A DNA stretch of 64,000 nt from Tetradesmus obliquus. Taxonomy: Eukaryota > Chlorophyta > Chlorophyceae > Sphaeropleales > Scenedesmaceae. The stretch covers positions 3,322,501-3,386,500 of the forward strand of contig CP126201.1 of NCBI GenBank assembly GCA_030272155.1, read 5' to 3'. Below the pieces are notes generated by a model. That model saw only the letters and a program-made list of their open reading frames with translations, was not told the DNA's origin and made no database searches. The translations under genes were made by a program, and so were the position numbers. This document shows positions 13,469-63,906 of the stretch, in pieces; position 1 is the first letter of the stretch, and every line of letters starts with the position of its first letter.

Positions 13469-15170
13469 TTGGATGTGCATGATGAGGATGAGGAGGAGGC
13501 GCTAGTGCTGCACCCTGGTGTCAGACTGGTGGATGCTGAGGTGAGAGCTGCTTCGTCTATGAGAGAGAGTGGCAGAGAGAGTCTTGTATTTTTGCGTATC
13601 TGCAAATGTATTTCATCATGTCGTCCGTCTTTGCTGGCTTTCACTGCCCCAGTCACTTGTTCTGGGAAAGCTCTGCACCGGCACTGCCAGCTGCTGCTGG
13701 AAGCTTCTGGTGGGCGCATCTTGCATTCGTGCACGCAGGAGTTCGTGCATTACTGACCCGTCAATTTACTTTTATAGCATATATATGTATATATGCTTGC
13801 CGCTGATAATCAGATCGAGGAGGCAGACCGGAGACAGTCGCAGTGCGCAGTTTCTGAGGTCGAGTTACTCGGGCCTGCAACATTCCATCATGTATCATTC
13901 AACAAGGCACTGGGCTCAAGCGGCAACTCTGTTGCTGCGGCGCAACGACAGAGTGGGACCGGCATGCATTTCAGCGTCTCATGCTGGAGCTCCGCCCTTG
14001 CCTCACCCAGGTGGCCACCTTGCTGACACCACAGACGTCTGCTGATAATGGTAGAATGGCAGCACCTTGCGGTGTGCATCTGGCCAAATATGCTTAGCAG
14101 CAGCAATGGCTGCAAAACCCTGTGACTGTAAAACCAGCAGATCTCTGCTGCATTCAAACACTGACAGCAGCTGCTGCCAGGCAACAAGTGTGCTGCAGCC
14201 AGCATTTGACATGCAGAGAGCCAACTGTAAAACCAGTCACATATGCTGAAGGTAAAACCATAATCAATCTTGTAAATATTCATAAACAGTATGTGGCATG
14301 TTGATTCCCATCAGGTGCAGCAGCAGCAGTCTGCTACCGCTGCTGCTGCCCTTTCCTGTAAGCATTTAATGTAATTAGATTTGATCTCCCTCTGCCCCTG
14401 GCCAGTGCATCTGGCCTGGAGAGAGAGAGAGGGAGAGAGAGAGAGAGAGAGAGAGCAAAGTTGTACTACTGTGCCTATGTTTCTGCAGCTGCTGCCCGTG
14501 CAGCAGCAACTGATACGCATGCAGCAGCAACGGCAGCAGTCGTTACATTGTCTTTAGGGCAGCTGCCACTGGCAGACACATGTACTGGTGCTGGCCATGC
14601 AGAAACGAACCATCATCATCTTGCTCCTGCATCCTTCATTCACCACCTGCTGCTGCTGCACTGCTGTTGCTGCTGCTGTGCAGCCGTGCCTGCCCGAGTG
14701 GACCTTCCAGCCCAGTGCGCTGCAGGCGCTGTGGCTGCAGCCGCCGCCAGGCCTTGGGGGTGATGACCAGGCTGAGCTGGACTGGTCGCTGCTGCTGCCA
14801 CAGTACAGCCCTAGCTTGGTGCCGCTAGTAGAAGGTAAACAAGCAGTGAATATGGCGTATGTTGTGTGTTTGTATGGGTGTGGGACTGGTCGCTGCTGCT
14901 GCCACAGTACAGCCCCAGCCTGGTGCCACTAGTGGAAGGTGAGGCAGCAGCTGCTGCTGCTGCTGCAGCAGCGTTGCTGGTATGGCATATGTGGTGTGTG
15001 TATGTGGGTATGGCACTGGCCGCTGGTGCTTGTATAGCCCTGTCCTGGTGCTATCAGTTAGTGGTGAGCCGGCAGCTGCTCTGAAAACGTGGTGTACAGC
15101 TCAACATGGACAATGTAGTGCGAAGTCAGGTGCCAGTTCATATGCCAGGCGAACAACTACCCGTCTTCCG

Positions 15171-15227
<57 letters not shown>

Positions 15228-15690
15228 AGGCCTGCCAGGCATGGAGGTGCTGCACATGCTCAGCAGCCAGGACATCATCGGCGCAGTCACAGGTAAGCCG
15301 CAGGCACGCGGCCACAAGGCTGCAGCTCAAACCGAATGCATTTGCTGCTTGCCTAGTCAACTGCATATGCTCAGCAGCCAGGACATCATTAGTGCAGTCA
15401 CAGGTGAGCGGCAGGCATTTGGGCAGAACGCACTAGCCGGGCACAGGTTACGACAACACAGCAGCAAGCGGCAGCAGCAGCGATGCCAGCAGCAGCATTG
15501 TGAAAGCGCTGGCGCCTGGGGTAGCGGCAGCAGCAGCAGTGCAGCTGTATGTGTGTGTCTAGGGCAAAAATAAGTAGCTTGCAACCGGTTGTGCTGTAGT
15601 TGTGATGCTGCAGTGCCCTGTTCAAGCCGAATGCATCTCCTGCCTGCCTACCCAACTGCCTGTCTGTTTACCTGCCTGCCGCTCTTTGTG

Positions 15691-15721
<31 letters not shown>

Positions 15722-17223
15722 TGACTTGTGCTGCAGATGCTGACCAGGAGACTCAGCTGCGCCACATGCGGGAGATAGCAGAAGTGCGGCGCATGCAGGG
15801 TGGCGTCACGCCGCAGCTGCTGCAGCAGGCGCTGCAGCAGAGCAGGCTGGGCCGCGCACGGCGGCTCTTCCAGCCTCTGCCATACCTGCAGCAGGAGCAG
15901 GCAGACGTCAGCAGCACAGATGTAGCAGCAATCGTGGAGATTCTCTGCGGCAAGCCGAGCCCTGCCACCCCTTCAGCTATTACAGGCACTGTGGGATTGG
16001 AAGATCCTGCAGTGTACTGGCAGCAGCGGCCAGTGCAGCTGCTGCAGGGCGGCGGCAATCCTCAGCAGCAGCAGCAGCAGCAGGTGCTGCACAGTGACAG
16101 CATCGGCCAGATCGCCAGCTGCATTCTGGTCAAACTCATAGTTGACTTGTGGCTGTCGGCTGGCGGTGCAGTTGCATTCCCGCTGGTGCTGCGGATGCTG
16201 CAGCAGGCGCTGTATCAGCAGCAGCCAGAGCACCGCGCAAACGCCTTCAACATTGTATATAACCTGGCGCTGCATGGATGCATGCTGATGCCAGCTCAGC
16301 AGTCACATCCGTCGTCTCCAATGGCACAGCCAGTCCGGCGGGACGCAGCAGCAGCAGCAGCTGCTGCAGCAGCAGCAGCAGCGCAAGCCGGCACCTCCAG
16401 TCTGCTGCAGCAGCAGCTGCAGCAGCTGAGCCTGCTGCAGCAGCAGCATGGCGCCGCAGGTGCAGCAGCTGGGCTAGGTGACGAACAGTTGAGCTCTGCT
16501 GCTGCTGATGCAGACATGAACCCTAGCCACCAGGGGCAGGGCTCACCTCGCAGCCAAGGAGGCTCCAGTGCACACAGCTACTCTCCATTATCATCCCCCC
16601 GCATACATCTGCCTCAGCAGCTACTGAGCCCGGGTTCGCAGCAACAGCAGCAGTCGGGGTCCAGCACACATCAGCAACAGCAGCAGCAGCAGCACTTTGG
16701 TGGTAGCACATCGCCGCTGCCGTCTCCTACTGGCAGGAGCAGGCTGTCACGCAACGAGCTGCGGATACATGCTGAGCAGCTGCGGCGCAGCAGTGAGCAG
16801 CAGGATCATCCGCCGGGCGCAGCAGCAGCAGCAGCAGCAGCAGCAGCGCATGATGATGCTGAGGCTGCAGGCAGTGATGATGAGCGGGGCTCGCATGGTC
16901 TGTTTGGTGGCAGCAGCAGCAGCAGCAGCAGCGATGGGCTGCTGCCGGTGGAGCTGGCGTGGGAGGCGTGGCTGCAGCAGCTGCTGTACGAGCTGCTGCT
17001 GATGCTGTCAATGGTGAGCGTGTTTTGCGCGTACTTGCTTGATTGTGCACGCATCTGTTGTATGCGAAGGATGTCGTGGTGCATAAGCAGCTGGTGGTGC
17101 AGGTGGTGATGTTCTCACTTCTTGCTTGACAGTCCTTGACCGTGTTTGTCAGCATTTATCAGCACTTTGCTCAACAGCCGCACAAGTGGCAGCACCAGCA
17201 CCAACATGCTGGATCAGCTGTGA

Positions 17224-17278
<55 letters not shown>

Positions 17279-17615
17279 AGGTTGAGGAGCCCTGCGAAGA
17301 GGTGTGGCAGGCAGCTGTGGGCTGTCTGCTGCAGCTCACCACACATGCAGGCCTCTGGGTGGCACCCAGCCTAGCTGTGCTTGCTGCTGCTGCTGCTGCT
17401 GCTGCTCTTGCAGGTTGAGCAGAGCTGCGAGGATGCATGGCTGGTCTTGTTATACAGCTGCAGCTACATCAGTAACATATTCCAAGTTCTGTGCTTTCTG
17501 CTGCCCTTTTTGCAGGTTGAGGAGCCCTGTGAAGAAGTGTGGCAGGCAGCAGTAGGCTGTCTGCTGCAGCTCACCACACATGCCGGCCTCTGGGTGGCAC
17601 CCAGCCTAGCTGTGC

Positions 17616-17672
<57 letters not shown>

Positions 17673-20600
17673 CAGGTTGAGCAGAGCTGCGAGGATGCAC
17701 AACTTGTTTTGTTAGGCAACTTTCAACTACACCAGTACCATAATCCAAGTTCTGTGCCTGCTGCTGCTGCTCTTGCAGGTTGAGGAGCCCTGTGAAGAAG
17801 TGTGGCAGGCAGCAGTAGGCTGTCTGCTGCAGCTCTCCACACACGCAGGCCTCTGGGTGGCACCCAGCCTCGCCGGCCTGCCTCCAGCAGCAGCAGCAGC
17901 ACTGCTGGACGCATGCGTGCGCTTCAATTGGTCAGCAGAGCTGCATTCACACCTCGTGCAGATGGCCGTGAACCTGCTGTATGTTACGGAAGGGCCTGCA
18001 GAGGATGCGCGCAGCAGCAGCAGCCGCGATGAGGATGCAGCAGCAGCAGCAGCAGCAGCGGCGGCTGCTGGTGGTGCTAGCAGGCACAGGCAGCAGGGCA
18101 GTAGTAGTGGTCGCTCGCCAGTGCGAGGGTGGGCAGCAGCAGTATCACCTGTGCGGTCCCCTGGCAGGCGGCAGCAGCAGCAGCGCGGCCACGCGAGAAG
18201 CAGCTTGCAGGAAGATGAGTGTAAAGAAGGTGCATACAGCGATGCGGGCAGCCATAGCAGCAGCAGCAGCGGCAGCGGCGGCCGCATCCGGCGCCGGCGC
18301 GCCAGCGCAGCAGCAGATGCGTCTCCCCGCAGCAACAGCAGCAGCAGATCTGGCTCATTAGTAGAGCAGCAAGCAGCATGTGAAGATGACATCGAGCTGT
18401 ACCTTCCTTGCCAGCTGCATGCTGGGCCTGTAGATGAGCAGCAGCTGTCTGCCTTTGGAGGTCCAGTCAAGCTGCTGCAGCACTTCTGTGCTGCTGCGTC
18501 TGTGGAGGCGCAGCGGACGCTGCTGGTGCCGTTGCTGCAGGTGCTGATGCCTGGTGATGCCTCGGATGCCAGCCAGCTGGCAGTGCTGCAGGCGCTGTGC
18601 AGCGGCGCTAACTGCTTGGCGGCGCTGCAGGTGGGCGGCTGTGCTGTTTGCGGCTGGGCCACAGTGCTCTTCTTATGTTGATGAGCTGCTGAACATATGT
18701 TGTGGCCTCTGCCGCTTGCACATTTTTATCGATATGAGCAGCGCCAGCTGTCAACTGCGCTGCAGGTGGGCTGCTGTGCGGTTTGCCACTGCGCTGCAGT
18801 GCTGTTGTTTTGTTGATGAGCTGCTGAGCACATGGCGTGGCCCCCCTCTGCCAGTTACACGTTGTTATCAGTTGCAGTGCCCCAGCTGTCAGCTGCACGG
18901 CCCAGCTCAGCACAGCACCACGCAGCCCCACCTTCCGTGTCAATGGCAGCTGCTCCTGCCGCTTTTTTGCCTTACCTACCTGCTGCCTGCTTGAATATCT
19001 GTTATGTTATTTGCGCCTGCAGGCCACGCTGTCAGCAGCACAGCCCGGCTGGGCAGACCCAATCCTAGCAGCAGTAACACAGCTGCTAGACAGCCATGAG
19101 CTCGACCTGCAGCTGCTTGCAGCTGTGCTGCTGCGGCTAGAAGACCTAGCAGTTGGGCAGCAGGTGCATGCGGCACGCGAGGTGCTGCCGCTGCAGCAGC
19201 AGCAGGGCTTTGGCAGCAGGCAAGCCAGCAGCAACGGGAATACCCCAGGAGATGCAGCAGGCGATGCAGCAGCGGCAGCAGTGCAGCAGGCATCTATGCC
19301 TCCAGAAGTTGAGGCTGCAATTCAAGTGACGCTGCAGCAGCTTGGAGGACACCTGTCAGCGCAGCAGCAGCAGCGGCCCGGGCCGCAGGGGTCGGCCGGC
19401 AGCGTGGTTTATGTCATGGCGGCCGAGGTTCAGGGGTCTTGGAAGGCGCTTAAAACGCTGTGCTGGTGCGATGATGAGCTTGCGAGGCGCGTGGCGAGGC
19501 ACTGGCTGCAGCACCTGCTGGCACTGACGCTGCAGCAGTCACTCAAGGTGCGGGGCCAAGGCGGATGAAACTGGAGTAGTTTAGAAGCAGCAGGTGTCAT
19601 TGCAGTGCAGAAGTGCGTGTGAGCATGTGCTGCTGCTCCGTGCATGCTCTCGTGCTGGCAGTTCCTGGGGTGATGGTTCCTGCAAAGTGCCAACTGGCCC
19701 TGCATGTCTGCTGCGGTATGCTCAGTCAAGCATGCCTTGCCTCTGCCAGCAGGTAGCATGTCTTTGCTTGATCCTTTGCCAAAGAGCGGTATCCTAAGCA
19801 AGCGTTGGGAAAGCTTAAGATAACAGCCATCTGCTGCCTCTGTTTGCATCGCTTCTAATTGCGTCTGCCAGGGAACCATCCTGCTTCCGCTGCCAGGGGT
19901 AACTCAGCGGACAGTCACAGCACCAGCAACAGCAGCAGCAGCAGGCCCCAGCAGAGGCAGCACTGGCGGCAGCACATCAGCAGCAGCAGCAGCAGCAACA
20001 ACTGCGGCCATCAATGCAGCATGCGACGCATGGGTAGATGTATTGGTGCAGCTCGTCAGTCATTGCCCCAAGGGCCCTGACATGCTTGTGGATGCATTAC
20101 AGCTGCATGTTACATGCTGCAAACTGCAGCTTACAGGTGATAGATCTGACCCAGAGTCCACGCTACAGCCTCTCACCCCATCATCCTCAGCAGCAGCACC
20201 TGCTGCTGCTGCTGCTGCTGCTGCTGAGGCGGCATCGCAAAGCCGCAGCCGGCAGCAGCAGCAGCAGCAGCAGCGTGCAGCTGTTGCGCGCGTATGTGTG
20301 CAGGCGTGGGCGTTTGTGTGCCAGTGGGTCATGCAGGCGAAGACAAGCAGCAGCCAAGTGGCTCTGACACGGCTAGCTGCTATGGCTCAAAGTTTAGTAT
20401 GTGTGCCAGAGGTGCCTGATTGGGTAGATGCATTGGGACCGCTGCCAGCAATTGATGGCGCTGCAGACACAGCAGCAGCAGCAGCAGCAGGAGGTGCTGC
20501 TGCTGCTGCCGGCACCCGCAGCAGCAGGGAAGCAGCACCTCGTGCAGAGCATGCTGGCTTACGTCGCAGCATCAGCAGTGATACAGCAGCAGCTGACCTT

Positions 20601-22989
20601 GCAGCAGCAGCAGGCAATGAAGCAGCAGCATACAAGGGGGTGCCACCTCCGGAGCCTAGCTCAGAGCCATCTTCCCTTGCTGCTTTGTGGGCAGCAGAGG
20701 AAGGCAGGGGCTCTGCTGCTACTGCTGCTGCTGCTGCTGGTCAGGAAGGGGCCTGGGGCCCCGGCGCTGCAGCAGCTGCTGCGTGTGCTGCTGCTGATGC
20801 AGTGTGCTGGCCGCAGGCGTTCCTGCTGGGGCGTGCACTGCTTCCTCAGGTGAGAGCAGCGTGGCTCTTTTGCAGGAAGAATAACACATGTTTGTCCTGC
20901 AGAGTACAATGGGATGTATGCCTGTGAGAACAGTGTGTCGCATGCACATGACGCGTTTTCTGATATGCTGTCACAGCACACTGTCACAGCATATCAGACA
21001 ATGCGTCATGTGCATGCCACACACTGTTCTCACAAGCCCTGCCAGACAACTTGTCTGGTGTGCTGAGGGTGCTGGTGCCTCACTACAGTTGCTGCAAAGC
21101 ATGCTTTTATCTCACTGGCAGTGTCGAACGTTTCCTTCATGCCCACACTGCCTTACCTTAATACCACCAATGTATGCATCGTCAACAACTGCCTGATCGC
21201 TGCCCGCGTCCATCTGGTGCTCTGGTGGCCTGCGCCTTCCTTGCAGCAAATGGCACAAAGTGCTGTCAGGAGCGTCCCGGCATGCATGCAAACCCCTGGC
21301 TGCCGGCACCCCATCCTTACATTCAACCCTGTTGCGTGCTCACGTGTTTACAGTCACTCCTTGAGTGTCCTTGAAAACTGCCTGCTGTATTCTGACGCCG
21401 GCAATTTTGCACCGTCCTTGCAGCAAATGGCGCAAGTGCTGTCAGGAGCCTCTTTGGCGCTGCTGCTGGTGCGGCTGCTGCAATGCAAGCAGCCCAGCAG
21501 AGCAGCAGACAGAGGGTTCCATGGAAGGCCCAGCTACTGCCCCCAGCCACCAGCAGCAGCAGCAGCCGCCCAGCCCAACAGCAGCAGCAGCAACCTCAGC
21601 TGGAATGCCACCAGCAGAACACAGCAGCAGCAGCAGCAGCAGTTGGGCAACACAGCAGCAGCAGGCAGTGCTGGCAGCAGCAGCAGCAGCAGCAGCGTGC
21701 TGCCGTGCCCCGTGCTGTACCCTTGGTGTGATGGGCGGCAGGACCTGCAGCTGTCGCTGCTGCTGATGCTGATGAGCAGCTGCAGCAGCGAGGCTGGCAG
21801 CTTTGCCGAGTATGGCTTGGAGGCAGTGACGCAGCAGGTGAGTTGAGCTTTTCAGGTCTAGTCGGGTTGAGTTCAGTTGCGTTTAGTTTAGTTCAGTTTC
21901 CAGCAGCAGCGGGGCGGGCAGCTTTGCTGAGTATGGCTTGGAAGAAGTGACACAGCAGGTGAGTTGAGGTATATTTGAGCTGTTTGTAGTTGAGATGAGT
22001 TGCCAGCAGCAGCGAGGCTGGCAGCTGTGCCGAGTATGGCTTGGAGGCGGTGACGCAGCAGGTGAGTCGAGTGTATCTGAGTTGGTTGAAGGTGGGTTGA
22101 GTTGCCAGCAGCAGCAAGGTGGCAGCTGTGCCGAGTATGGCCTGGAGGCGCAGCAGGTGAGGGGCTGGGCCTAGAAGCCACTGCACAATGTCTTTAAAGC
22201 TCCTGGTGTCCCTCGTCGCTTGGTACGCATCCTGCTCTCTTGTTGAACATCAAGATTTCCAATGAGTCTTTGGCCCCTCTCATGAGGCGAGCATGGCGGT
22301 GTATCTATCTGTTTGCAGGTGCTGTCGCGCTGCCCCGACCCGCGCGCCTGCCAGCTGGCCAGCCAGTTCAGCCTGGAGCACATGATGCGCCTTTCTGCCC
22401 GCTCCCTTTGTCTTCCAACACTTGACATTCAACCTGCTCTGCTTGTTCTTCTGAATCCTTTGACCCCAGGCAATGCGCTTGCCTATTCTCTCCTCCAATG
22501 CTGAAACACGTAAACATGGCACTCCTTCTGAGTTGGCTATGGCTGTGTGCATCTGTTTCATTGCAGGTGCTGTCGCGCTGCCCCGACCCGCGCGCGTGCC
22601 TGCTAGCCAGCCAAATGAAGTATAACTCAACCCGCTTTTGTTTTTAAATATGTGTTTTGCAGGTGCTGTCGCGCTGCCCCGACCCACGCGCCTGCCTGCT
22701 GGCCAGCCAGTTCAGCCTGGAGCACATGATGCGCCACGCGCAGCAGCACTACTGGGCAGCAGTGCGGCAGCTGCTGGCAGCGGCACAGGCAGCAGACGAT
22801 GAGCGGCTGCTGGGCAATCCCTTTCTGCAGCTGGTGACGCTGCTCTCGCAGCAGCAGCAGCAGCAGCAGCAGGGTGGGAATGGGGCGGCCAGTGCGGGTA
22901 CAGCGGGAGGTGTGGCAGGTGGCGGCGGCAGCAGCAGCCGCAGTCCGCTAGGGCTCGGCATGGGGTGGTCGAGTGGGGCTCGTATGTGA
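11995..22989 (+). CDS. Large ARM/HEAT-like protein of land-plant type
   Basis: Secure exons: 12085-12161, 12270-12320, 12499-12578, 12846-12945, 13258-13540, 14684-14834, 15230-15292, 15737-17013, 17779-18630, 19023-19547, 19872-20849, 21424-21837 and 22663-22989. Every junction closes in phase, giving 1725 residues plus an unresolved N-terminus; in-frame ATGs at 11995 or 12007 are possible starts. Helical, conserved-looking blocks (SYLTNDRCVDSVYKAI near the start, LEDPAVYWQQRPVQLL, ILVKLIVDLWL, VWQAAVGCLLQL, and NPFLQLVTLL near the end) are separated by Gln/Ala/Ser repeats. They recall from memory a family of uncharacterised plant proteins of about 1100 residues with ARM-like folds. No catalytic motif or membrane segment is seen. 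Molecular role unknown; a scaffold is inferred. Five or more introns carry partial copies of the adjoining exon. Confidence 0.75.
14422..14456. repeat. (GA)n microsatellite
   Basis: Almost pure GA dinucleotide run in an intron of the ARM-like gene. Confidence 0.85.
14884..15063 (+). repeat. Two donor-type exon echoes (ARM-like gene)
   Basis: The last about 58 nt of exon 14684-14834 (coding DWSLLLPQYSPSLVPLVE) reappear at 14884-14938 and, more worn, at 15012-15063. Each copy is followed by its own GT donor (GTGAG). No acceptor precedes them, so they should be intronic unless used as alternative exons. Confidence 0.8.
15170..15228 (+). repeat. (GCT)n tract ending in a splice acceptor
   Basis: An uninterrupted run of about 18 GCT triplets whose last units form CTGCAG, the acceptor of the exon starting at 15230. 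The microsatellite takes the place of the polypyrimidine tract. Confidence 0.85.
15361..15403 (+). repeat. Donor-type exon echo (ARM-like gene)
   Basis: Copy of the 3' end of exon 15230-15292 (LHMLSSQDII with Ser replacing Gly next) including a GTGAG donor, 110 bp downstream of the original. The downstream intron flank is also similar, which indicates tandem duplication. Confidence 0.8.
15690..15722. repeat. (GCCT)n microsatellite
   Basis: Tetranucleotide run just before the acceptor of exon 15737-17013; it may serve as the pyrimidine-rich tract. Confidence 0.8.
17224..17778 (+). repeat. Acceptor-type exon echoes with (CTG)n acceptors
   Basis: The 5' end of exon 17779-18630 occurs four more times upstream, starting at 17281, 17414, 17516 and 17676. 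The copies at 17281 and 17516 are about 97 nt long, 90% or more like the real exon, and code EEPCEEVWQAAVGCLLQL. Those at 17414 and 17676 are shorter and more diverged. Each sits behind its own pyrimidine tract or CTG run and CAG. All begin GTTGAG, so each junction reads CAG|GT. Confidence 0.85.
20924..21033 (+). ncRNA. Near-perfect 110-nt hairpin, candidate small-RNA precursor
   Basis: Left arm 20924-20976 and right arm 20981-21033 (53 nt each) are reverse complements at 49 of 53 positions, with one of the four differences a G-U pair in RNA, and the loop is only 4 nt. It lies inside an intron of the ARM-like gene, on the sense strand. Such an arm length and pairing suit a microRNA or hairpin-RNA precursor; a fold-back (MITE-like) insertion or a recent inverted duplication are alternatives. 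No flanking target duplication is obvious. Confidence 0.5.
21247..21280 (+). repeat. Acceptor-type exon echo (ARM-like gene)
   Basis: Copy of the start of exon 21424-21837 (CTTGCAG followed by CAAATGGCACAA), 177 bp upstream of the real acceptor. A one-base insertion shifts its frame, so using it would disrupt the protein. Confidence 0.7.
21900..22156 (+). repeat. Three donor-type exon echoes (ARM-like gene)
   Basis: The last about 58 nt of exon 21424-21837 (ending EYGLEAVTQQ) are repeated with donors after 21958, 22061 and 22156, at about 100-120-bp spacing, each followed by GTGAG. Between copies the intron sequence is also related. Confidence 0.85.
22319..22615 (+). repeat. Two acceptor-type exon echoes (ARM-like gene)
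   Basis: The start of the last exon (22663) is copied at 22319 (about 72 nt) and 22567 (about 40 nt), each preceded by TTGCAG. The reading LSRCPDPRAC is intact in all three. Only the third copy continues into the C-terminus. Confidence 0.85.
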
Positions 22990-32235: not shown

Positions 32236-32822
32236 TTACGCGCCCTCAAAGGCCTTGCGGGCACCCTCATCTCCCGCGTCCTCCTGCCCTGCCTCCTTCT
32301 TATACACCTCTGCCTCCTCAACACCAGCACCCGCCTCGGCCCCCACACCATACACCTGCGCCACACGCTCAGCAGTGCTGTCAGAAGTGGCAGCACCTGC
32401 CGACTCAGCACGCCCCACATTCATTGCATCGTCACCAGCAGCCAGCCGTCCTTCAGGCATACCATCCACTGATCCCGCCCTGCCTGCAGTGTCGCTGCTG
32501 CTGCTGCTGCTTGCAGACTTCATACCAGGCTCAGCACCACCGCTTGAGCCCTGCGCCCTCATCTGGTCCATTCCCTCCCCAAACTCGCTTGCCCCGCCGC
32601 CATAGCCGCCAGCACCACCCACTGCCCCTGCCATGCCCTTGTTAGAAGCGTCAACATCACCCTGGGTCTCGCGCTCGGAGGAAGGTACCTGGGTCGAACC
32701 CTGAGTCTCACGCTCAGTGTACTTTTTGCTCTCTGCGGGGTCCATGGCGGGGTTGGTGTCAGAGGAGGGCACCTCCCAGCCTGTCGACACCTCCTGGGGG
32801 CCACCTGGGGCCTGCCCGGTCT

Positions 32823-32860
<38 letters not shown>

Positions 32861-48429: not shown

Positions 48430-51400
48430 ATGGCGCGGCGTCTTGCTCTGCTCAGTGCTCGACTGGGTGCGAGGCAGCTGTTTGGCAGCCCCGCACTGGG
48501 CGCTGCGGAACGGGCGTTTGCTGTTGCTGGGTCACAAACAGCCAGAAGCCTGCTGAGCAGCAGCCCGAGCCAGCTATGGCAGCAGGGCACTCCCTCTCGT
48601 GGCTTCGCATCGGAGGGAGAGTCCGCAGCTGGCTATGAGGAGTGGGATCAAATAAGCTATCCACCGCCGAGGGCTTTTGTGGGCCAGATGGCTCCAGACT
48701 TCGAGGCACCGGGTACGCTCGCGTCCTTGTCAGCAGCAAAACGTGCTTGGCAGTCTGAATCGTCGCGCCCAGCAATCGAAATCACGTTCATTGCAAAGTG
48801 TTAAGCTGTGGTAAACAAATGCGCGTGATCTGTGGCTCTATGCGGCCTATCTCTGCAGCAACAGCAGTAGTTACCCAACAGCAGCGAGCCTCACAGTTTT
48901 GGTGAACCCTGCCCTACTGTCTGCTACTGCAGCTGTGATCGATGGCGAGATCCGAAACATCTCTCTGTCAGACTACAGAGGGAAATACGTGGTGCTGTTC
49001 TGGTGCGTGCCTGCAAGCTGACGCAAGGCCTGCTGTAGTAGCACTTGCAGCAGTAAAAGGTCTTGCACTGCTGCAGGGTGCACAGCAAGCATTTGTACAG
49101 CAGCAGTCCTGGAAGCTGGGTGACGCAACCAGCAGCAGTGCTTAGTCAATTCAGCACAGCTCTTGCTTCTGTACGTTACAGCGAGTTTGACTGCAGCTGC
49201 AAGTTCACTGCACCCTCGCAAACCAGCAAGACACCAACCCATCATCATCATGTTACCCATCAAGCCATAGCTCAACAAGACACCGCCCCCTGTGCAGCGC
49301 AGCCTGGCGACATTTGCTGCAACTCAACCTCTCAGCAAACCCAGTGCAAACACGTGTAACAATCACACCGCTTGCTGTGATGTTATGCTTGCAGGTACCC
49401 CAAGGTGCGTGTTGATTGCAGAGCAGCAGCAAACTTACATGCAGCGCCATCCTCTGGTGCAGCTGCAGCAGACACACATACACACGCACTCGCCAGACCA
49501 CACATAGCTGTTGATGGGCCACTGCAGTGCAAGGCGTACTTGGTTGTATGGTTCATAGCAGCTTGCACCAAACATTGATACAAGGTTTTGCTCGCTCCCA
49601 CTGTGTAGATGCATGTGTTCTTCCGCTGCGTAAGCATTCACAGCACCAGAGGATGGCCACACTTGATCGTCATCTTTAACAGTGGCAAGTAGCCTTGCAC
49701 CTGCTGACAGCGTTGTCTGGTGCTCTGCTGTGTGCTCTGCTCCGCAGGACTTCACATTCGTCTGCCCAACAGGCAAGCGCAGCAGATGTTCAGCAAGTAG
49801 CTAAAGCATTGCAACAGACCTGCAGCAACAGCAGCGGGGTGCACATGCTGTGCAGGAAGCAGCTGGCTTTGAATTTGTAGGACAGTCATGTTGCTGTTGT
49901 GCTGTATCGCCACGGTACGGCGCCAACTGCTTTGCTCCATCACTGTTTCTGATATGAGACAAGCGCACAGAGTGCTGCTGGTGCAGCCAGATTGGCCGTC
50001 ACTACTCAGCAACGCTGTTACATGTTTGCTCATGGTCTGACCATTGCTGCTGCTGCTGCTCCTGCTGTTGCTGCCGCAGAGATCATCGCGTTCTCTGACC
50101 GCTTCAAGGAGTTTGACGCCATCGACTGCCAGGTCATCGCTGCCAGCACAGACACAGAGGAGTGCCACCTGGCGTGGATCAAGTGAGCTGAAATAAAAGT
50201 AACAACTTATGTAACAGCGCCCGACAACATGACTGCAGGAGCTAGGCTAGGCTGCAATGACTGCAGATGCAGAAGCGCATGACATCAGCAGTCCAGACAC
50301 ATATGATATCGTGCTTCTGCATTACCTTCTCTCTCTGTGGGCTTACCTTCTCTCTCTGTGGGCAACTGGGCTTCAACACCAGCAGCTGGCTGCTGCCGCT
50401 GCTGCTGGTATTGTTGTCTGCTCTGAAGAGCAGACAGGAGGGCCAGTTGCTGTAGTGGCAGCAGTAGTGCTGCGTACTATGTTTAAAAATTATGGGCTCA
50501 CACTCCACTGCTGGCCCTCGCTGTTTGTTGCTTGATGACAGCAGCTTTGTTGCGGTCATTCTGATGTCATTTCAGCTATACATAGCAACTGCGGCTCTGG
50601 CTTGATCAACAGCAGTAGTAATGTCACTGCAGGTACGCTGGATGACAGGCGAAGCGGCACCTTTGCATGGCATCGTGGCCCAGCAAACAGGCACACAAAG
50701 CAGACCACTCGTATGTACGCACGGCTTCCATCCTTGCAGTTACGCTCGAGACGTTTGTGTAGAGGTTTGTGCCTCTTGCTGCCGTGCGCTGCTTCTGCTG
50801 GAAGCAGCCAGGGCTATTCCTCCACAGGCACGGCCTCGAGGCTTGCCTGTGAGGGGCTAGTCCTGGCTGACACAGTGGTTCGGCAACGCAGCGACAGCAC
50901 CCTTTGTAGAAATGCTTAGCACCTGATTTGTGCACAGGGCCTGCTCCCAACAATCCCAATGCTGCTGCTACTTTTGCTTTGCTGCTGCTGCTGCTGCTGC
51001 TCATGCGATTCTTTGAACCCCGCAGGACTCCCCGCAACCGTGGCGGGCTGGGCTACACTCAGATTCCCATCGTGGCAGACACAACAAAGGTGCGGCACGG
51101 CGTATATGTCGGCACATATTCATATCAAAAAACATAGTCAGTTGTCTGTACTGTGGCCCATCTTTGCAGACCAAGTTCATGACTGCAGGCCATTGCTGCG
51201 CGCTACGGCCTGCTGCTGGAGAAGACAGGTATCTCCACCACTGCACTTGCATGCACAACAGCAGAGCCGCTTTGCCTACGCACCCTGTCATAAACCCTCT
51301 GTCACATAATGCCGCAGGCCATTGCTGCGCGGTACGGCGTGCTGCTGGAGAAGGCGGGCATTGCGCTGCGTGGGCTGTTCATCATCAACCCCGAGGGCGT

Positions 51401-54020
51401 CATCCAGCAGATCACCATCAACGACCTGGTGCGTGGTGACTGCTTTGAGTAATCTGCCTTGAGGATCATGTTGAAAGTTATGTGCAGTGGGCTGGTAGTT
51501 ATCATCAACCCTGAGGGCGTCATCCAGCAGATCACCATCAACGACCTGGTGCGTGTTGACTGCTTTGAGTAACCTGCCTTGAGGATCTGTTGAAAGTTAT
51601 GTGCAGTGGGCTGGTAGTTATCATCAACCCTGAGGGCGTCATCCAGCAGATCACCATCAACGACCTGGTGCGTGATGACTGCTTTGAGTAATTTTGTTTG
51701 AGGATCATGTTGAAAGTTATGTGCAGTGGGCTGGTAGTTATCATGAACCCTGAGGGCGTCATCCAGCAGATCACCATCAACGACCTGGTGCGTGATGACC
51801 GCTTTAGATCATCAAGTTTGAGGATTATGTGTGCATTATAGCACTGCTGATAATGGTGTAGTAGCCTGATGGTCGTCATCAACCCCGAGGGCGTCATCCA
51901 GCAGATCACCATCAGCGACCTGGTGCGTGATGATTTCTTGGAGAAATCATGTTTGACGATTATGTGGGGTAGGCTGGTGGTCGTCATCAACCCTGAGGGC
52001 GTCATCCAGCAGATCAACATTAACGACCTGGTGCGTGATGATTTTTAGAGTAATCCTGTTTGACGATTATGTGGGGTAGGCTGGTGGTCGTCATCAACCC
52101 CGAGGGCGTCATCCAGCAGATCACCATCAACGACCTGGTGCGTGATGACTGCTTTGGAGTAATCATGTTTGAGGATTATGTTTGAGGATTATGTGTGCAT
52201 TACAGCACTGCTGATATTCGTGTAGTACTGATGGTCATCGTCAACCCCGAGGGCGTTATCCAGAAGATCACCATCAACGACCTGGTGCGTGCTGAATGGG
52301 TTTAGTAACCTGGCTTGAGGGTTGTGTTGAAGGTTATGTGTAGTAGCCTGGTGGTCGTCATCAACCCCGAGGGCGTCATCCAGCAGATCACCATCAATGA
52401 CCTGGTGTGTTATAACAAAGATCATTTGCGGTTGATCGATCAATTGCTTTGGTTTTGATGGAAGGATGAGTGCTTGCTGTTGCAATTTCAAAAGCATGGG
52501 TTGATCATCAACCCCGAGGGCGTCATCCAGCAAATGACCATCAACGACCTGGTGCATGATGTTTTTTGGAGTTATCCTGTTTGACATTCATGTTTGGTAG
52601 GCTGGTGGTTGTCATCAACCCCGAGGGTGTCATCCAGCAGATCACCATCAACGACCTGGTGACTGCTTTGCGACATAAGGTCTGAGGATAACTCTGGAAC
52701 TCGTGTCTGATATGCTGGACGCCGTCATCAACTCCTCCTGCGGCTGTGATTGTTGCTGCTGAGGTGTTGCTACGCGGTGTTTAATCGCGCAGTGCACATC
52801 AGCAACACCAATGTCAACTGCAGGGGTTTTGCCTTCGTCTGTCACACAGCAGCATCAAATGGAAGGCAATATATGGTGCTCGCATATTCTGTTGTAACAT
52901 CACTACTGCTGCGGGCGGTGGAGGGCGCATCAGCCTAGGTGCACATATGTATGGCTGCAAGCAGTATGCATTCATCAATGCTGGCATCGTCTTGCTTGTA
53001 CGCCTTTTTTCCTTGAGCCTTTCTGTTGAGCTTGTTGGTGCCGCAGTTGCTCACCTAGAGTAGCTTGAGGGACTTTGCCACCTGCACGCTCAGCAGAAGG
53101 GTAGACATATGCATAGTGTTTATGTGTGTTGTTATGATGCTGCCCTCTTCATGGCCGCGAAAGGTTCAACCCCTGAGATGAACACCATCAGCAGCACCCT
53201 AGGTGACAAGAGCATTTGCACATCTGGGCAGCACAGCAAAAACACCTACAGCTCAAACGTGTGCCCCTGGCTGTCATTCACGGTGCGTGCTTGCCTGCCT
53301 GCCTGCTGCTGTGCCTCCTGTGTGCCCTGCTGTGCGTGCTGTACAGCCCATCGGCCGCCCAACCCAGGCCACCACGCTGCAGCTACTTGCTGGCGCAATC
53401 ACTGCCTGGCTGCCCTGCCACTGACGCTGCTGTGTGTGATTTCCTGCGGCTGTGCATGCTGCAAGGCCGTTGGGTGTAGCCAAGGCGCTGACGTTGGTGC
53501 GGCCTCTGGCTGTTGCTAACACTTCTGCCTGCCTGTGCACCTGTCTGCTGCTGCTGCTGCTGCTGCTGCTTGCCGTGTTGTGCGTGTGCATGCAGCCCAT
53601 CGGCCGCAGCGTTGACGAGACGCTGAGGCTGGTGCAGGCCATCCAGTTCCACGCCAAGTACGGAGAGGTGAGATTCCATGTTGTAAATGCTGCGCAGTGC
53701 ATAGTATCATGATAGATCTGCAGTAAGTAGCGTGGTGCAGCAATGCATTCAGGCTGGTGCAGGCCATCCAGTTCTGAGCCAAGTACGGCGAGGTGAGAGA
53801 GCTTGCTCGACATGCTGTCCAGTACATATTACTGCAGTAAACGGCATGTGTACTGCAGTACGATACCTCATGGGCTGGAGCAGGCCATACGGTTCCATGC
53901 CAAGTGCGGATGGGTGAGAGTATCTTTGCAACTGCCGCGCAGCTCTGCGAGCATGGTGATGCGTACACAAGAGAATTATCACCAGACACCGCTACGGCTT
54001 CATCATTTCTTGCACCGCTG

Positions 54021-54058
<38 letters not shown>

Positions 54059-54565
54059 TGTGCCCAGCCAACTGGAAGCCCGGGGACAAGACCATCATTG
54101 CTGACCCGGAGCGCTCTCTGGACTACTTTGAGAAGGCACACAAGGTGTGTGCAGTCAGGCATCAATGTGTCTTCAAAACAGTTCATCATAACCACACTTG
54201 CTGTCAGTGACCCTGCCAGAGAACCGTATGCGGAGCGTGTGCGGTGGCCGTGCCTCATAGCGCACCTCTGCAGGCGTCTGCTACTGCTGCTGGCAGGTAC
54301 CTGTTCTGCCCGCCAACTGCTGTTTTGTGCAGTTGTTCTCGCAGGAGGCTGCAGTGGAGGAGGAGTTTGGCGCCAACCTGACGCCCATCAACAACAAGCG
54401 GGACTTTGTGCGCTCATCAACGGCTGTTGCTGCTGCTCCTGCTGCTGCTGCTGCTCATATGTCTCTTGCAGGAGGCTGCAGCGGAGGAGGAGTTTGGTGC
54501 CAACCTCACGCCCATCAACAACAAGCGCGACTCTGAGGCACTCGTCAACGGCCGCAGATCCCTGA

Positions 54566-54605
<40 letters not shown>

Positions 54606-55664
54606 GTATCTTTCTGCTTGCAGGAAGCCGCTGCGGAGGAGGAGTTTGGCGCCAACCTGACCCCCATCAACAACAAGCGCGACTTTGAGGCACTCATCAA
54701 CGGCCCCAAGCCCGTGGTTGTGGACTTCATGGCGCCCTGGTGCGGCAAGTGCCGCATGATCGCGCCTTTTGTGGACGAGCTGGCAGAGAAGCACCCCAAC
54801 ATGGTGAGTTTGGCTTGGTTATGTTTCAATATGAACATCAAATATGACAGTGTTTGAGGGTTGACAGGTGTGTATGACACACAGAATGACAGCTATTTGT
54901 GGACGAGCTGGCGGAGAAGCACCTCAACATGGTGGGTTTGACCATGTTATGATTGGTAATGTTGTTGACTTCATGGCGCCGTGGTGCGGCAAGTGCCTCA
55001 TGATTGCGCCATTGATTGATGAGCTGGCTGAGAAGCACCCAGTGCCTGGTCAAACTGCTGCTGCTGCTGCTGCTGCTGCCGCTGCTGCAGGTGTTTGCCA
55101 AGTTTGACACCAGCATGGAGCAGCTGGAGCCGCTGTCAGCAGAGCTCAATGTGAAGGCGCTGCCAGTCTTCAGGTTCTACAAGGTGCTCTGCCTGTTGTG
55201 TTTACTATGTATGCACAGACAGACACAACACCACCTCACACAGCTTGCCGTTGATCCCTGCAAGCTGGTTGCACATAATAGATCTTCAGGTTCTACGAGG
55301 TGGGCTGCTTGGCATGCTTTCATGATGCGCTTTGTGGTAAGCAACACCACCTGGCTTTGTGAGTATCCCGCTTGTTGTGCAGACGTGAAGCACCCTGCCC
55401 TTTGCCTTGAACCGTGCATGCTGGTTGATTGCAGGGTTTATCTTTTGGGGCTGTTGGCCATCCGCCGATTTATGCTGCAACACAATGCAGGGTGGATACG
55501 TATCACCCAATGCTGGTCATGCCATTGTTGACGGTGGTTCTTCCGTGTGCATGATGTGCTGCTGCTGCTGCTGCCTGCAGGGAGGCAAGGAGGTTGTAGA
55601 GCAGGTTGTGGGCTACAAGAAGAAGCCCCTGGAGCAAGCAGTACAGCACCTAGCGGCAGCATAA
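48430..55664 (+). CDS. Mitochondrial-type 2-Cys peroxiredoxin fused to thioredoxin
   Basis: Twelve exons: 48430-48712, 48933-49002, 49395-49404, 49747-49771, 50080-50182, 51026-51089, 51318-51428, 53596-53667, 54058-54144, 54624-54803, 55091-55183 and 55581-55664; all phases close, 393 residues. Residues 1 to about 65 are basic, Ser/Ala-rich and acid-poor ([18 protein letters not shown], then RGFAS), like a mitochondrial presequence. The Prx domain has DFTFVCPTE (peroxidatic Cys127), a GGLG motif, and the resolving Cys248 in VCPANWKPG followed by DYFEK, the GGLG/YF pair of over-oxidation-sensitive eukaryotic 2-Cys Prx. The thioredoxin domain (about 276-390) has WCGKC (315-318) instead of WCGPC and the cis-Pro in KALPVF (about 360). 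It should reduce peroxide and may recycle its own disulfide through the fused thioredoxin. One intron has a GC donor (after 49771) and exon 3 is only 10 nt. Confidence 0.9.
51189..51226 (+). repeat. Acceptor-type exon echo (Prx)
   Basis: Copy of the start of exon 51318 ([14 protein letters not shown]) with CTGCAG in front and, unusually, a GT right after the match (ACAG|GTATCT). It could act as a 37-38-nt cassette exon; skipping or inclusion would alter frame. Confidence 0.7.
51480..52665 (+). repeat. Ten tandem donor-type exon echoes (Prx)
   Basis: The end of exon 51318-51428 ([16 protein letters not shown] then GTGCGT) is followed by ten further copies, with the GAGGGCGTCATCCAG core near 51513, 51633, 51752, 51888, 51995, 52101, 52248, 52366, 52518 and 52623. 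Spacing is about 105-150 bp. Reading frames are intact in all and nearly all retain a GT donor after CTG. Intron sequence between copies (GATTATG, GGTAGGCTGGTGG) is also shared. Confidence 0.95.
53347..53390 (+). repeat. Acceptor-type exon echo (Prx)
   Basis: Copy of CCCATCGGCCGC at the start of exon 53596, behind GTACAG, about 250 bp upstream; it diverges after about 12-15 nt. Confidence 0.6.
53745..53913 (+). repeat. Two donor-type exon echoes (Prx)
   Basis: The end of exon 53596-53667 ([13 protein letters not shown]) recurs at about 53752-53791 with an in-frame TGA and at about 53875-53913 with three changes, both followed by GTGAGA. Confidence 0.85.
54343..54570 (+). repeat. Two acceptor-type exon echoes (thioredoxin start)
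   Basis: The 5' about 90 nt of exon 54624 ([18 protein letters not shown]) occur also at about 54345 and 54473, each behind a CAG. They diverge or shift frame before the PWCGKC part, so neither could give a working thioredoxin. Confidence 0.88.
54890..55042 (+). repeat. Two donor-type exon echoes (thioredoxin active-site exon)
   Basis: 54895-54932 repeats [12 protein letters not shown] and 54960-55042 repeats [17 protein letters not shown] to ELAEKHP, each followed by a GT donor. The second contains the whole CGKC motif. Confidence 0.85.
55284..55299 (+). repeat. Donor-type exon echo (Prx-Trx)
   Basis: CTTCAGGTTCTACGAG plus a GTGGGC donor, a 16-nt copy of the end of exon 55091-55183. Confidence 0.55.
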
Positions 55665-57683: not shown

Positions 57684-57810
57684 AACAACGTCAACAATCA
57701 GGGAACTGCATGATGTACAAGAAGCCCGTAGGTCATGTCAAACCTGTCTCACCTACCACTGGAACGACTCCGACCCCTAAATTATTGCTTTGAGAGGGGG
57801 TCTCAGCCGG

Positions 57811-58587
57811 TCAGTCAAACCCTGAGTACACCCCAAACTGCCGCGCTATCCGCTTCTCCTCCTCTACTGTGCTCTTGCCCCTGCTCTGCATGCCAGCATC
57901 GCGTTTGCGCTTCTCCTGCAAGCGCAAGTGATAGCAGCAGAGTGGCACACAGCATAGAACATGAGAAAGCAGCCTGCAATGCATGGACAGCCACTGCGAC
58001 ACATGCTCTGTATGTGCATGCAGCGACGCGCTTGCGCTTCTCATGCAGGCCACGATTGCACAACAGCAGCGTGGCACACAGCATAGGACATGAGAAAGCA
58101 GCCTGTAAAGCGTAGACAGCCACTGCAACACACGTTTTGCATGCCAGCCTCGCTTGCTTCTCATCTTGAGGGCAGAGGACTCTGCTTTGCTCTTGCGGCA
58201 CATCCCTTCCCACTTTTGCCGCGCCTCCGCTGCTAAAACTGCCCTGCCCTGCCCTGATCAAGCCCTTTCACACAATCTTGTTGGTGAGGGATCTGCCCAA
58301 CCCTCGGGGCACAGCACCGCCGCAGCTCTTGAAAGGCTTCTCACTCATGGGAGTGCAACCACACAGGCATGCACGAGCCGATATTTGGCATAAGATGCAG
58401 CTGCACAGACCTAAAACCCCTCCCACCTTGAGGGCAAAGGACTCTGCTTTGCTCTTGCGGTTCATCTCTTCCCGCTCCTGCCGTGCCTCATCCCGCAGGC
58501 GTGCTGCATGCTGCTGCGCCTTCATGGCTAGCCGCGCAGCCTCCTCCGCTGCTGTGGTGGCTGCCTCGTGCGTGCGCTGGCGCTCCT

Positions 58588-58629
<42 letters not shown>

Positions 58630-59977: not shown

Positions 59978-60186
59978 CTGCTCGATAGCCTGCGGTCGAT
60001 GTCTGCTAATTCTGTCGAAAGTGACCTGGATTGCGGTGACGAGCACAGAAAGGTGCGGCACACTCAAAGCGCCACGAACACAGCAGCAGATCAATTTCTT
60101 TGCTTCAAGGCTTCCTGCAGGAGATGGACAAGAGGGAGCAGGGTGGAGCAGGTCCGCGCTCAACCCTAACAAAGCCCTTGTGACAG
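59978..60186. promoter_or_regulatory. Short divergent promoter region
   Basis: The coiled-coil gene starts at 59977 (-) and the last gene begins within about 150-210 bp on the plus strand, so both probably share this segment. An ATG at 60124 (+) could start the right-hand gene but its phase does not fit the next exon. Confidence 0.4.
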
Positions 60187-63100
60187 TGACAGTGGTGAGT
60201 TTGAAGTGCTGCTGAGCAGCAGTTCAACACCAGCGACGCAACAGCTTGATGCGGATGACACAGTGTACGGTCAGCTGTTGCACACGCTGTCTGTTTGTGT
60301 GAGCAGCACACGTAGCAGGAGCAGCGTCAGCAGCAGCACTCATGTCACTAGCACAGAAGACGATCTCGTTCAAGGCGCTGTAAGTCCCCTCTTTTGCCCA
60401 CAGCATAGCATTGTCGCACATTAATGCCTGGTGTATGCTGCTGCTGCAACAGCAGCCAGCTGATCAGCATGTGTACCGTGCATGCTGCTTGGCCAGTACC
60501 CGTGTCACTCTGCGTCATTGCTTACTGTAGGCAGCGCTGCCGCACCACGATAGAGGACTTTGCTTGCACATACTTCCCTTTGCATGGCTTAGACGTAGCA
60601 CAGGTGAGCTTACAAGATATACAGCAGCTGATGATGCAAAAGTGTGCGCATCTGGACATAGACGAAATCAAACTGCACGGCGCATAACTTTACTGCCCAG
60701 CACGCAGCACCATCTGTTTTTCAAACAGCAGGATTCTCTGCACCAATCTTTAACTGTAGGGCGCGCATCAGCATACCCTCGTGCAACGCACTGCAAAGCT
60801 CCAAGCGCCAACAGCCCTCTGCACAATTGCTCCCGTTACATCCACCAAATGCACTGTTTTCACACCTGCTGTCCCACTATGTTCTGCATCTGTTCTAGGG
60901 CCTGTTCCAGTACCTAGACATACTGCTGTTCGTGGAGGCCACCATATACCAAATGGATGAGGAGAATGAGGCTCTCTGCGAGCAGCTGGCACAACAACAT
61001 GACAGTCAAACAGGACAGCAGGCTGCTGCAGAGGATGCACAGCAGCAGCAGCAGGCTGGTGCAGAGGATGCACGGCAGCAGCAGCAGGCTGGTGCAGAGG
61101 ATGCACGGCAGCAGCAGCAGCCCGAGGAGCAGCCCGAGCAGCAGCCGGAGCAGCAGCAGCAGGAGCAGCAGCTCACCTTTGAAGGTGAGCAGGACTGCAG
61201 CTGTCCCAGTGCAGCAGCAGTGTGCGCCACAGATGCCACTTTGTTGTTCAACACTACCTGTCTGCATTGATACCTGCTGGCCAGGATTGCTGCTTCAAAT
61301 GCCAGGACCCCAGCATTAGCTGATGCCTGACAATACCTCACTAGTTGATCTCTGTGTCCCTGTGTCTTGATGTCTTTGTTTACACGCAGCCCAGGAGGTA
61401 CTGCTGCAGGTGCTGCAGCAGCAGCTGCTGCTGAGCGACCGCGTCAGCGAAGAGCTCACCCTGGTGGGTGAGCGTGCTGGCAGATCAACTGCAGCTTCTG
61501 TATGAGCTTGTATGTGCATTTCTTTTGCCTTGCTGGGGTTGATAGCTGCGTAAGCGAGGAGCTCACCCTGGTGGGGGGGGGGGCCTGCTGTGATGCACTG
61601 CAGCTAGCGGGTATGTGCGCTGTTGTCCGGCTACAGTCCTGCTGTTATTCATCAGCCGCAGCGTTGCAAGCTTGAACTTGCAAGCTTGATCTGCACACAA
61701 GCATACTGGTGAGGGGCCTGCTGGCAGATGCTGTGCAGCTTCTGTCTGAGACTGTGTATTGCTGTTGCTGCTGCTGTGGTTCAAAGCTAGTCGTTTGCAA
61801 AACCACCACGCAAGCTCAGGCATGCGGTGCACTGTGTCAAATTTGGGGTCTGTGTCTGCTACGTCCTGCAGGGCCAGCAGTATTGGCGCCAGGAGCGGCA
61901 CATCTGCAGCCAGCTGGCAGCCACGCAGCCAGGCCATGCAGCGGGGCTGTCACTGTCCGAGGTTGTGGCTGCACATGAGGCAAAGAGCTTCGACTATAGG
62001 GTGAGCCTGCTGCTGTAGCTGCAGCTGCAGTGATATGCTGTTCATAATGCTGTTTGTGGCGGTGTTGATATCACTCTGGCACATGAGCATGGCCTCACAT
62101 CAGCTACAGGGCGCCCCACACGGCTTCATGCGACTGTTGGCACTGCCTGACAAGCAGCAGTGCAGGCGCAGAGGGGCTGGGGCCAGCCTGAGACACCCCT
62201 CATTTCGCCTGCAGCAACAACATAATGGGCGTAGTTGACACAGTGTATCTTTGTGCTAGCAATGGCGTGGCTGTGAAGCAATCATGTCTCCTTGTGTGTG
62301 TCTGCAGGTGCTGCACGCAAGCCTCTACTTTGCACAACTGATGTGTCTAGGTGTTCACTCGCCGTGCCGCAGGTGCTGCACCTGCTGCTGCATGGGCTTG
62401 CGCAAGCTTCTGGTTGAGGCGCTCTGGTGAAACCTTGGATGTCTGTGTGTATTGTTCTAATGCCGCAGGTGCTGCACCTGCTGCTGCATGGGCTGCTGCG
62501 CAAGCCGCTTGATGAAGCTCTGCTGGCTTTCATGCGGCTGGACGAGATGCTGATCGACATTGGGGATGACTTAACAGATTACGAGGATGACGTCATGGCC
62601 AACTCCTTCAACATCTACAGGGGTGAGCAAATGTTTAACAGCATGGGCATTGTTGCATCACCAAGTAGGATGGTGTCATGGCCAGCTCAGTCTATGCCTA
62701 CAGGGGTTTTTCTAACCTGTTGTAGCATTTGCATTGCTGCGTCATCAGTTACAAGGATGACGGCATGGGCCCTTCCCCTTTTATCTTGAAAGGGGCAATG
62801 AACATGGGCTGTTGCCTTCCAGATTGCATGTGTCAAAGGAAAGGGGGCTGTGGCATGCTGGCAGCATACGCTGTGGCACGTGAGGCAGATGTGACTGGCT
62901 GCATAATGACAGAGACTGAGGAGCAAACCGAGCCCTGCTGCCAGAGGCCCTGAAAGGACAGTTGCTCTGTGTGATCAAAGCCTAACGCTGCCGTGACTGC
63001 TCTCTGCTCTATGCTGCCTTGTGCTTGCAGGCTTCATCCACTTGTACGGCAAGGAAGCGCCCATGAATTTGGTGAGTGTGAACACGCTGCTGCTTACCTT

Positions 63101-63906
63101 CTGCAGCCCTGCCTGCCTGTAACACTGGAGCAGCATAGCATGGTAATGCAGCAGAGGCGCACAGAGCGCCGGTTGATGCCTGCCGTGCAAATATATGCAG
63201 GATACATACGCACTTTGCAGAAGCAGCATTATGCCTGCTGCCTGCTGACGCATGCAGCTGCCTGCCGCCTGCAGCCGTGTCTCCTGCAGGCTGCACGCAT
63301 CTCCCACCTGTGGGCCCACAGAGCACCTGGTCATGCCTGTAAGCTGCTGATGCACGCCGCTGCCTGCCGCCTGCTGTGTTTTGTCTTGGAGGCGGCGCGC
63401 ATCTCACACCTAGAGGACCACACCGCCCCTGACCATGCCTGCTGCCCGCATGCTGCATGCTGCTGCCAACGATTGACCCATGCTTTCATGCCCACAGGTG
63501 CATGAATGTAAACATTGCTCTAGGTTTTTATGGACGACTGACTTCTGCTTGCTGTCCGGCTGTCCTGCAGGCTGCGCGCATCTCCCACCTGGAGGCGCGC
63601 CGCGGCATGCTGCTGGCGCAGCTGCCGCAGGGGCTGCAGCAGAAGGTGCTGAAGCGACAAAAGGAGGCAGCCACAGAGGAAGGTGCGGCGCTGCTGCTGC
63701 TGCTGCTGCTGCTGCAGCGGCAGATACTCTGTAGTTTGACATTGTATTGATTGCTGTAAGCGGCTGTGGCAAGAAGATTGCAGGCAGCCTTGCGTTCAGA
63801 TTTGGGATGCTGTGAGTGGCTGCCGCAAGAGACACCTGTGCGCTCTGACACTGTGCCCTGTTTGACTCATGCCTGTGTGTGCTGGTGCCCTGCCTGGTGG
63901 GTAAGG

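Follow-up and report, generated by a model that had tools for sequence, protein, structure and literature searches.

Introns in a 64,000-nucleotide stretch of the Tetradesmus obliquus genome (the window, contig C11:3322501-3386500) carry partial copies of the exons that adjoin them. The copies are local and in direct orientation, fall mostly into one size class and usually keep the copied splice dinucleotide. They also follow two directional rules: copies of an exon's 5' end lie in the preceding intron, and copies of its 3' end lie in the following one. The pattern is present in every block of the genome that was sampled. Its likely origin is recurrent duplication, local and direct, of segments that mostly measure 105-165 bp, sieved for survivors that leave one intact exon.

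Partial exon copies follow two directional rules

The genome (104.66 Mb in 17 contigs, 56.4% GC) was sampled in six blocks on six contigs: the window (W), B1 (C1:1.00-1.05 Mb), B2 (C2:2.00-2.05 Mb), B3 (C3:3.00-3.05 Mb), B4 (C17:0.50-0.55 Mb) and B5 (C9:1.63-1.67 Mb). Among exons 36 bp or longer, a match of at least 75% to the exon end within the adjoining intron counted as a copy, and 966 ends across the six blocks were tested. Copies of the 3' end occur in the following intron at 27 of 483 exon ends, against 0.09% of 2268 in length-matched introns elsewhere, and copies of the 5' end occur in the preceding intron at 30 of 483, against 0 of 2234. Wrong-side introns, used as a second control, give 5/441 and 7/441. 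A first-pass annotation had proposed both rules from the window, and they hold beyond it as well; its confinement of the pattern to five genes is too narrow, as all five other blocks show it. Exon-end hits, and strict local pairs per 10 kb with redundancy removed, are 12/195 and 5.3 in the window, 7/168 and 4.6 in B1, 4/156 and 1.6 in B2, 8/134 and 2.6 in B3, 21/182 and 17.0 in B4, and 5/131 and 3.0 in B5.

Genes were predicted by a purpose-written gene finder that joins a coding Markov model to splice-site matrices and reads both strands, without RNA. Seeded with a green-algal codon table and then retrained on the window and the five other blocks, it yields 793 exons in 68 genes across 304 kb, with predicted consensus sites AG/GTGMG at donors and TGCAG/G at acceptors (the slash marks the junction). 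Pfam matches were obtained for nine of 15 predicted proteins: peroxiredoxin plus thioredoxin (in a hand-joined model), COX15, Clp protease, amino-acid kinase plus ACT, protein kinase, STT3, ABC1, ubiquitin-conjugating enzyme and papain-type protease. The other six have no Pfam match. Copies occur in conserved genes, identified by Pfam as AhpC/TSA plus thioredoxin, COX15, amino-acid kinase plus ACT, STT3, ABC1 kinase, ubiquitin-conjugating enzyme and Clp protease.

Local pairs in the six blocks are direct in 327 cases and inverted in six. Nearest-neighbor offsets lie between 105 and 165 bp in 95 of 175 pairs and below 90 bp in two; a second rise at about 210-270 bp fits two units, and a second, independent program likewise reports several periods in the range 134-168 bp for L027, a part of B4. 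Complete head-to-tail tandems account for 62 of the 175 pairs. A genome search at E <= 0.001, in which the best candidates were scored, places all 12 matches of a peroxiredoxin exon and both matches of a second exon at their own locus. This orientation, the tandems and the own-locus matches support the earlier proposal that local duplication across splice junctions is the source. For the same two exons the search found no similar sequence at unrelated loci, as introner elements would give, so a dispersed element is disfavored; it likewise found no homeologous gene copies, which were rejected as a source.

The copied GT or AG is kept in 48 of 57 copies (GT in 22 of 27 donor-type copies, AG in 26 of 30 acceptor-type copies). 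Such sites may compete in splicing, as the first-pass annotation proposed. On the truncated side, a partner site scoring at least 2 is found in 4 of 27 donor-type and 2 of 30 acceptor-type copies, and is absent from 51 of 57; at any score above 0 the counts are 8/27 and 11/30. The gene models' own donors have a median score of 2.2 and their acceptors 4.1, a yardstick by which a cut-off of 2 is strict for donors. Offsets are divisible by three in 15 of 57 cases by hand count, so in-frame inserts are not indicated, and in-frame insertion of the unit was rejected. Triplet-repeat tracts were rejected as the trigger too: 57 of 700 repeat ends (8.1%) lie near simple repeats, versus 10.9% of random nearby points. 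In a near-identical 215-bp unit of B2, the single unit examined, the ends share about 8 bp of extra match with one mismatch, which is compatible with microhomology.

Local repeats make up 16.0% of intron-labeled bases (27,799 of 173,704), ranging from 2.7% in B2 to 47.3% in B4. Introns with a copy have a median length of 349.5 bp (n=50), versus 171 bp for those without (n=640); this contrast is suggestive and in part automatic, because longer introns give a larger search space. Intron growth through such copies is suggested to that extent, and the gene models hint at lengthening of existing introns. Pairs lying only in introns number 14 of 148, against 26.6% expected for the same geometry placed at random in genes (27 extragenic pairs excluded), a shortfall inflated because the gene finder labels some copies as exon.

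Arrays in the window

The clearest array lies in a possible peroxiredoxin-thioredoxin fusion gene (48430-55664, + strand). The full fusion is a hand-joined model, as the gene finder split the first peroxiredoxin exons into a separate gene ending in the array. Its features, all on the + strand, are as follows.

51185..51232: acceptor-type copy with AG of the first 44 bases of exon 51318-51428, 129 bp upstream in the intron before that exon
51318..51428: full 2-Cys peroxiredoxin exon, source of the copies on either side (gene model and peroxiredoxin homology)
51487..52661: donor-type array of ten copies of the 3' end of exon 51318-51428, all with GT; copied junctions at 51548, 51667, 51787, 51922 and 52030 (first five) and at 52137, 52284, 52404, 52551 and 52658 (last five), spaced 107-147 bp
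53596..53667: peroxiredoxin exon (gene model)
53751..53913: two donor-type copies of the 3' end of exon 53596-53667, junctions at 53792 and 53913, with an in-frame stop in the first
54337..54556: two acceptor-type copies of the thioredoxin exon's 5' end, spaced 127 and 152 bp, called exons by the gene finder
54624..54803: thioredoxin-domain exon with WCGKC (Pfam and gene model)
54893..55040: the thioredoxin exon's 3' half, present twice in the intron after it, with WCGKC still encoded in the second copy

The ten donor-type copies span the final 47-59 bases of their exon, with GT in 10/10 and GTGCGTG in 7/10. Compared mutually, eight of them (the true exon and the last two copies excluded) have an identity of 0.935 in the exon part and 0.714 in the intron part; all ten together with the true exon give 0.936 and 0.706. 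The predicted gene at 53151-55664 (+) joins the last peroxiredoxin exons (EVCPANW) with the thioredoxin domain (WCGKC). Outside the gene model, near 49.76 kb, is a peroxidatic motif, DFTFVCPT.

Aligned with itself, the window shows 65 local pairs of direct repeats with members under 3 kb apart, the earliest at 14779, in stretches at 14.8-22.7 kb (+), 35.7-47.6 kb (-), 51.2-55.0 kb (+), 57.9-58.5 kb (-) and 62.4-63.6 kb (+). These pairs bear out the exon-edge copies first described in five genes, and a rough hand count of about 55 copies agrees with the roughly 50 then claimed. The other arrays and copies are these.

14779..15080 (+): exon 3' end (to 14834) with a clear donor-type copy 104 bp downstream, then a fainter one (self-comparison)
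15250..15417 (+): exon 3' end (to 15292) with a donor-type copy 111 bp downstream
17216..17907 (+): array of units with CTG repeats, TGCAG and an exon-like start, of ambiguous type
21782..22161 (+): array whose 103-121 bp unit consists of exon end and intron
22293..22735 (+): acceptor-type copies of a single exon, spaced 96 and 248 bp
39117..39884 (-): array of about 5.5 units of 135-145 bp in a serine/alanine-rich gene, perhaps partly coding repeats
42368..43025 (-): array of 133-bp units, perhaps partly coding repeats
45731..46964 (-): array of about 295-bp units, nearly all labeled intron
57887..58143 (-): exon end with a copy at 128 bp
58159..58489 (-): donor-type copy 58159-58227 of exon end 58421-58489, 262 bp apart, the copy's GT lost
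62365..62526 (+): acceptor-type copy 62365-62427 of an exon starting near 62469

In the gene at 35.7-47.6 kb, some arrays could consist of coding repeats instead of intron copies, two cases that the gene models, made from sequence alone, do not distinguish. The serine/alanine-rich region also has distant duplicated segments, at 32240-32638 and 35975-36385 (85% identical) and at 32676-32878 and 43943-44147 (92% identical).

The DnaJ, ankyrin and protease genes, said earlier to lack the pattern, gave one CAG-rich pair near 5.7 kb in strict searches that were otherwise empty, and a looser search added two weak pairs (65-67% identical) near 4.0 and 8.1 kb. The ankyrin-gene regions 3952-5505 and 8063-10570 have diverged colinear stretches in common, 73-86% identical where aligned, a colinearity like that of an old gene duplication.

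Outside the window, B4 (L024-L028, C17:500001-550000) is a hot spot with 17 local pairs per 10 kb, where local repeats occupy 47% of intron-labeled bases and 46% outside predicted genes. A separate 24-bp tandem array of 21 almost perfect copies lies at L027:1537-2045. In B1, a ClpP-like gene (L011:456-3016, B1 20456-23016) has two to three copies the size of an exon that show several replacement differences; these resemble exon duplicates more than partial copies, and mutually exclusive exon duplication is a candidate reading there.

Proposed origin and uneven preservation

Under the favored explanation, this genome would often make, or would once often have made, local direct duplicates of segments, most of them 105-165 bp in length. 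Where a segment held an exon end, its donor and the start of the intron, the first copy would stay intact and the second would fall inside the intron, with the mirror case at acceptors. The spliced protein would be unchanged if the original site were still used, so selection would tolerate such a duplication, and duplications within exons or over whole exons would mostly be lost. This survival sieve alone would produce both directional rules. Over repeated rounds arrays would form, introns would grow longer and many spare splice sites would be left behind. The original site would remain the spliced one, and selection would decide which copies survive. The copies would be made by break repair or replication acting on lengths of about one nucleosome, a choice favored because human repair duplications are similar in size (PMC2671141) and because fill-in at staggered breaks is a possible source of short tandem duplications (PMC8355091).

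Several results weigh against this explanation. On identical junctions and with equal search space, exon seeds recover copies at 52 of 601 ends and intron seeds at 9 of 557, an imbalance for which ascertainment was rejected as sole cause, since reciprocal seeding still favors the exon part. At 85% identity the counts are 36 and 2. A neutral simulation with uniform ages gives a 1.7-fold exon/intron ratio, and one with a single age of about 0.16 substitutions per site per branch gives 5.5-fold and 20-fold. One narrow age shared by the copies could thus fit the ratio but leaves the silent-site bias unexplained. That bias comes from 60 exon-copy comparisons in which the copy is labeled intron: they hold 249 silent and 177 replacement differences (88/79/259 by codon position), with an omega of 0.266 (bootstrap 0.205-0.336) under the local mutation spectrum and 0.267 without B4 (n=32). 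Free copies beside constrained exons should give about 0.5, and the lower value is unexplained. The claim that flanking intron was copied along stands only for acceptor-type copies, where it is still recognizable (identity at least 0.75) in 8 of 27; among donor-type copies the figure is 0 of 25. On retroposition, which would leave no intron beside the copied exon, the evidence is divided: GT or AG is kept in 48 of 57 copies and the acceptor-type matches include intron, but donor-type copies have no such match. Gapped pairs form the majority (113 of 175), with the size peak present in these and in complete tandems, and the gene models are our own, predicted from sequence alone.

Other measures describe the same halves. 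The exon part is the more similar one in 69 of 71 exon-seeded arrays, and in all 30 with at least three copies (some arrays counted from both exon ends). Intron-seeded arrays show the reversed order (exon 0.774, intron 0.872), which seeding itself would give. A second seeding count, with exon-labeled copies included, finds 229 copies at 140 of 957 ends with exon seeds and 70 copies at 48 of 886 ends with intron seeds. In the 31 comparisons with at least 40 intron bases aligned, divergence per site is 0.244 at silent, 0.074 at replacement and 0.152 at intron sites; the remaining 29 have 0.27 at silent and 0.06 at replacement sites. Replacement sites look like one free branch, and silent sites are in excess, for which diverged alleles, higher silent mutability, mislabeled real exons and real use of the copies are candidate causes. 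Stop codons number 10 (8 by another count), close to the neutral expectation of 3.9% of replacement changes. Broken copies show less of the silent bias (100 silent, 101 replacement) than intact copies do (149 and 76), and third-position GC is 0.754 in exons versus 0.721 in their intact copies, and 0.732 versus 0.725 for broken copies. Multi-copy sets, which possibly include mislabeled exons and are not relied on, give a copy-specific omega of 0.38 and 65 silent and 47 replacement differences specific to the true exon. A gene-conversion load that keeps copies coding-like was set aside by argument only, because a selectable rate should have wiped out the observed 25% silent divergence.

These patterns invite the reading that selection maintains the copies for a function, as alternative exons, repeated exons or decoy sites, so that introns would serve as a reserve of usable exon ends. 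We regard it as improbable. The low omega, the codon-position counts and the better-kept exon part, both in the peroxiredoxin array and in 30 of 30 larger arrays, fit functional copies, as do copied donors that by eye are often unlike the original yet consensus-like, and the 19 of 57 copies with a partner site scoring above 0; 51 of 57 lack a partner at the cut-off strict for donors, however, and the order of similarity turns around in intron-seeded arrays. Indels of the exon part are frame-shifting in 41 cases and in-frame in 4, no better than in the intron part (167 versus 24), stops or frameshifts break 22 of 60 comparisons, and ten additional peroxiredoxin fragments would hardly be sensible in a protein. 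It is doubtful, too, that the exon-derived half is kept coding-like through alternative exon ends, splice decoys or continual exon-limited rewriting from the true exon. Exchange between diverged alleles, in a hybrid or very diverse diploid, would account for the silent-site excess and the near-stationary third-position GC of intact copies, and silent divergence is uniform across pairs (chi2 61.1, 59 df), an evenness that may be a detection-limit effect. The S. obliquus DOE0152z assembly measures about 208 Mb versus 109 Mb for UTEX393, a difference whose cause is unstated there (PMC5552973); the words intron, diploid, ploidy and heterozyg are absent from the S. obliquus AS-6-11 genome paper (PMC7590803). 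Such exchange requires an allelic silent divergence of about 0.25, however, and some pairs agree at 97-99% of positions over 223-422 bp, so we consider it a poor candidate.

That part of the signal consists of true coding repeats or exon duplications mislabeled as intron is unlikely, though less so than the readings above. Many exon-sized repeats occur in B4 and in the 35.7-47.6 kb gene, several of them called exon, and the silent/replacement ratio is heterogeneous across copies (p = 0.004). Clear partial copies are nevertheless found in conserved enzyme genes (peroxiredoxin-thioredoxin, COX15, amino-acid kinase, ABC1), and omega does not change when B4 is left out. An assembly artifact is very improbable, given that 157 of 175 pairs share less than 95% identity, arrays reach ten copies, and six blocks on six contigs are affected. 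The recurrent local duplication with a survival sieve described above remains the explanation we favor.

Known systems and biological meaning

Introner elements are dispersed, mutually alike copies that bring gain of intron-related sequence at scale. The arrays described here are similar in the large scale of that gain; unlike introner elements, the two searched exons match their own locus only. Among the matches listed in a literature search, no title dealt with partial exon copies arrayed in the introns of algae; subscription literature lay largely outside that search, which is no proof of absence.

Junction-spanning local duplication is a dense variant of known local duplication. In PMC4974935, a tandem duplication across an intron-exon boundary of the potato RdRp gene gained a new intron, with the duplicated exon part in the mRNA. 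There, as here, the duplication spans the boundary and carries splice signals along; in the alga, by contrast, the original exon apparently stays, the copy lies within a longer intron, and many genes and arrays are involved. Vertebrate repair-mediated proximal duplications (Pace et al. 2009, PMC2671141) have a proximal median of 147 bp, and some contain partial exon plus intron; in the human genome, 824 probable cases include 4 donors with partial exon/intron, those at most 50 bp from the template being excluded as tandem. The algal copies are likewise short and local, but they are far denser and their units repeat. Fill-in by Pol alpha-primase at 3'-overhang breaks yields small tandem duplications at induced breaks in human and mouse cells (PMC8355091), a possible biochemical route to short tandem duplications that was demonstrated in mammalian cells, not algae.

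Neither the narrow size class nor the better-kept exon half was foreseen by the first-pass annotation, and the puzzle of preservation is the most interesting remaining point. If the exon-derived halves were maintained, extrapolation from 57 copies in 304 kb would give thousands of maintained spare exon ends genome-wide. Intron lengthening and splice-site gain are usually inferred from old, faded events; here a large set exists in one genome. Comparing the two halves of a copy, exon-derived and intron-derived, gives a built-in control, and the size class is clear, so that the mutation step, the selective sieve and the use of duplicated sites could be measured. Exon-edge copies are also a hazard for gene annotation. 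The introns of Tetradesmus obliquus average 462 bp, longer than those of the three other algae of the same order tabulated in PMC5966456, and junction-spanning duplication might bear on that length.

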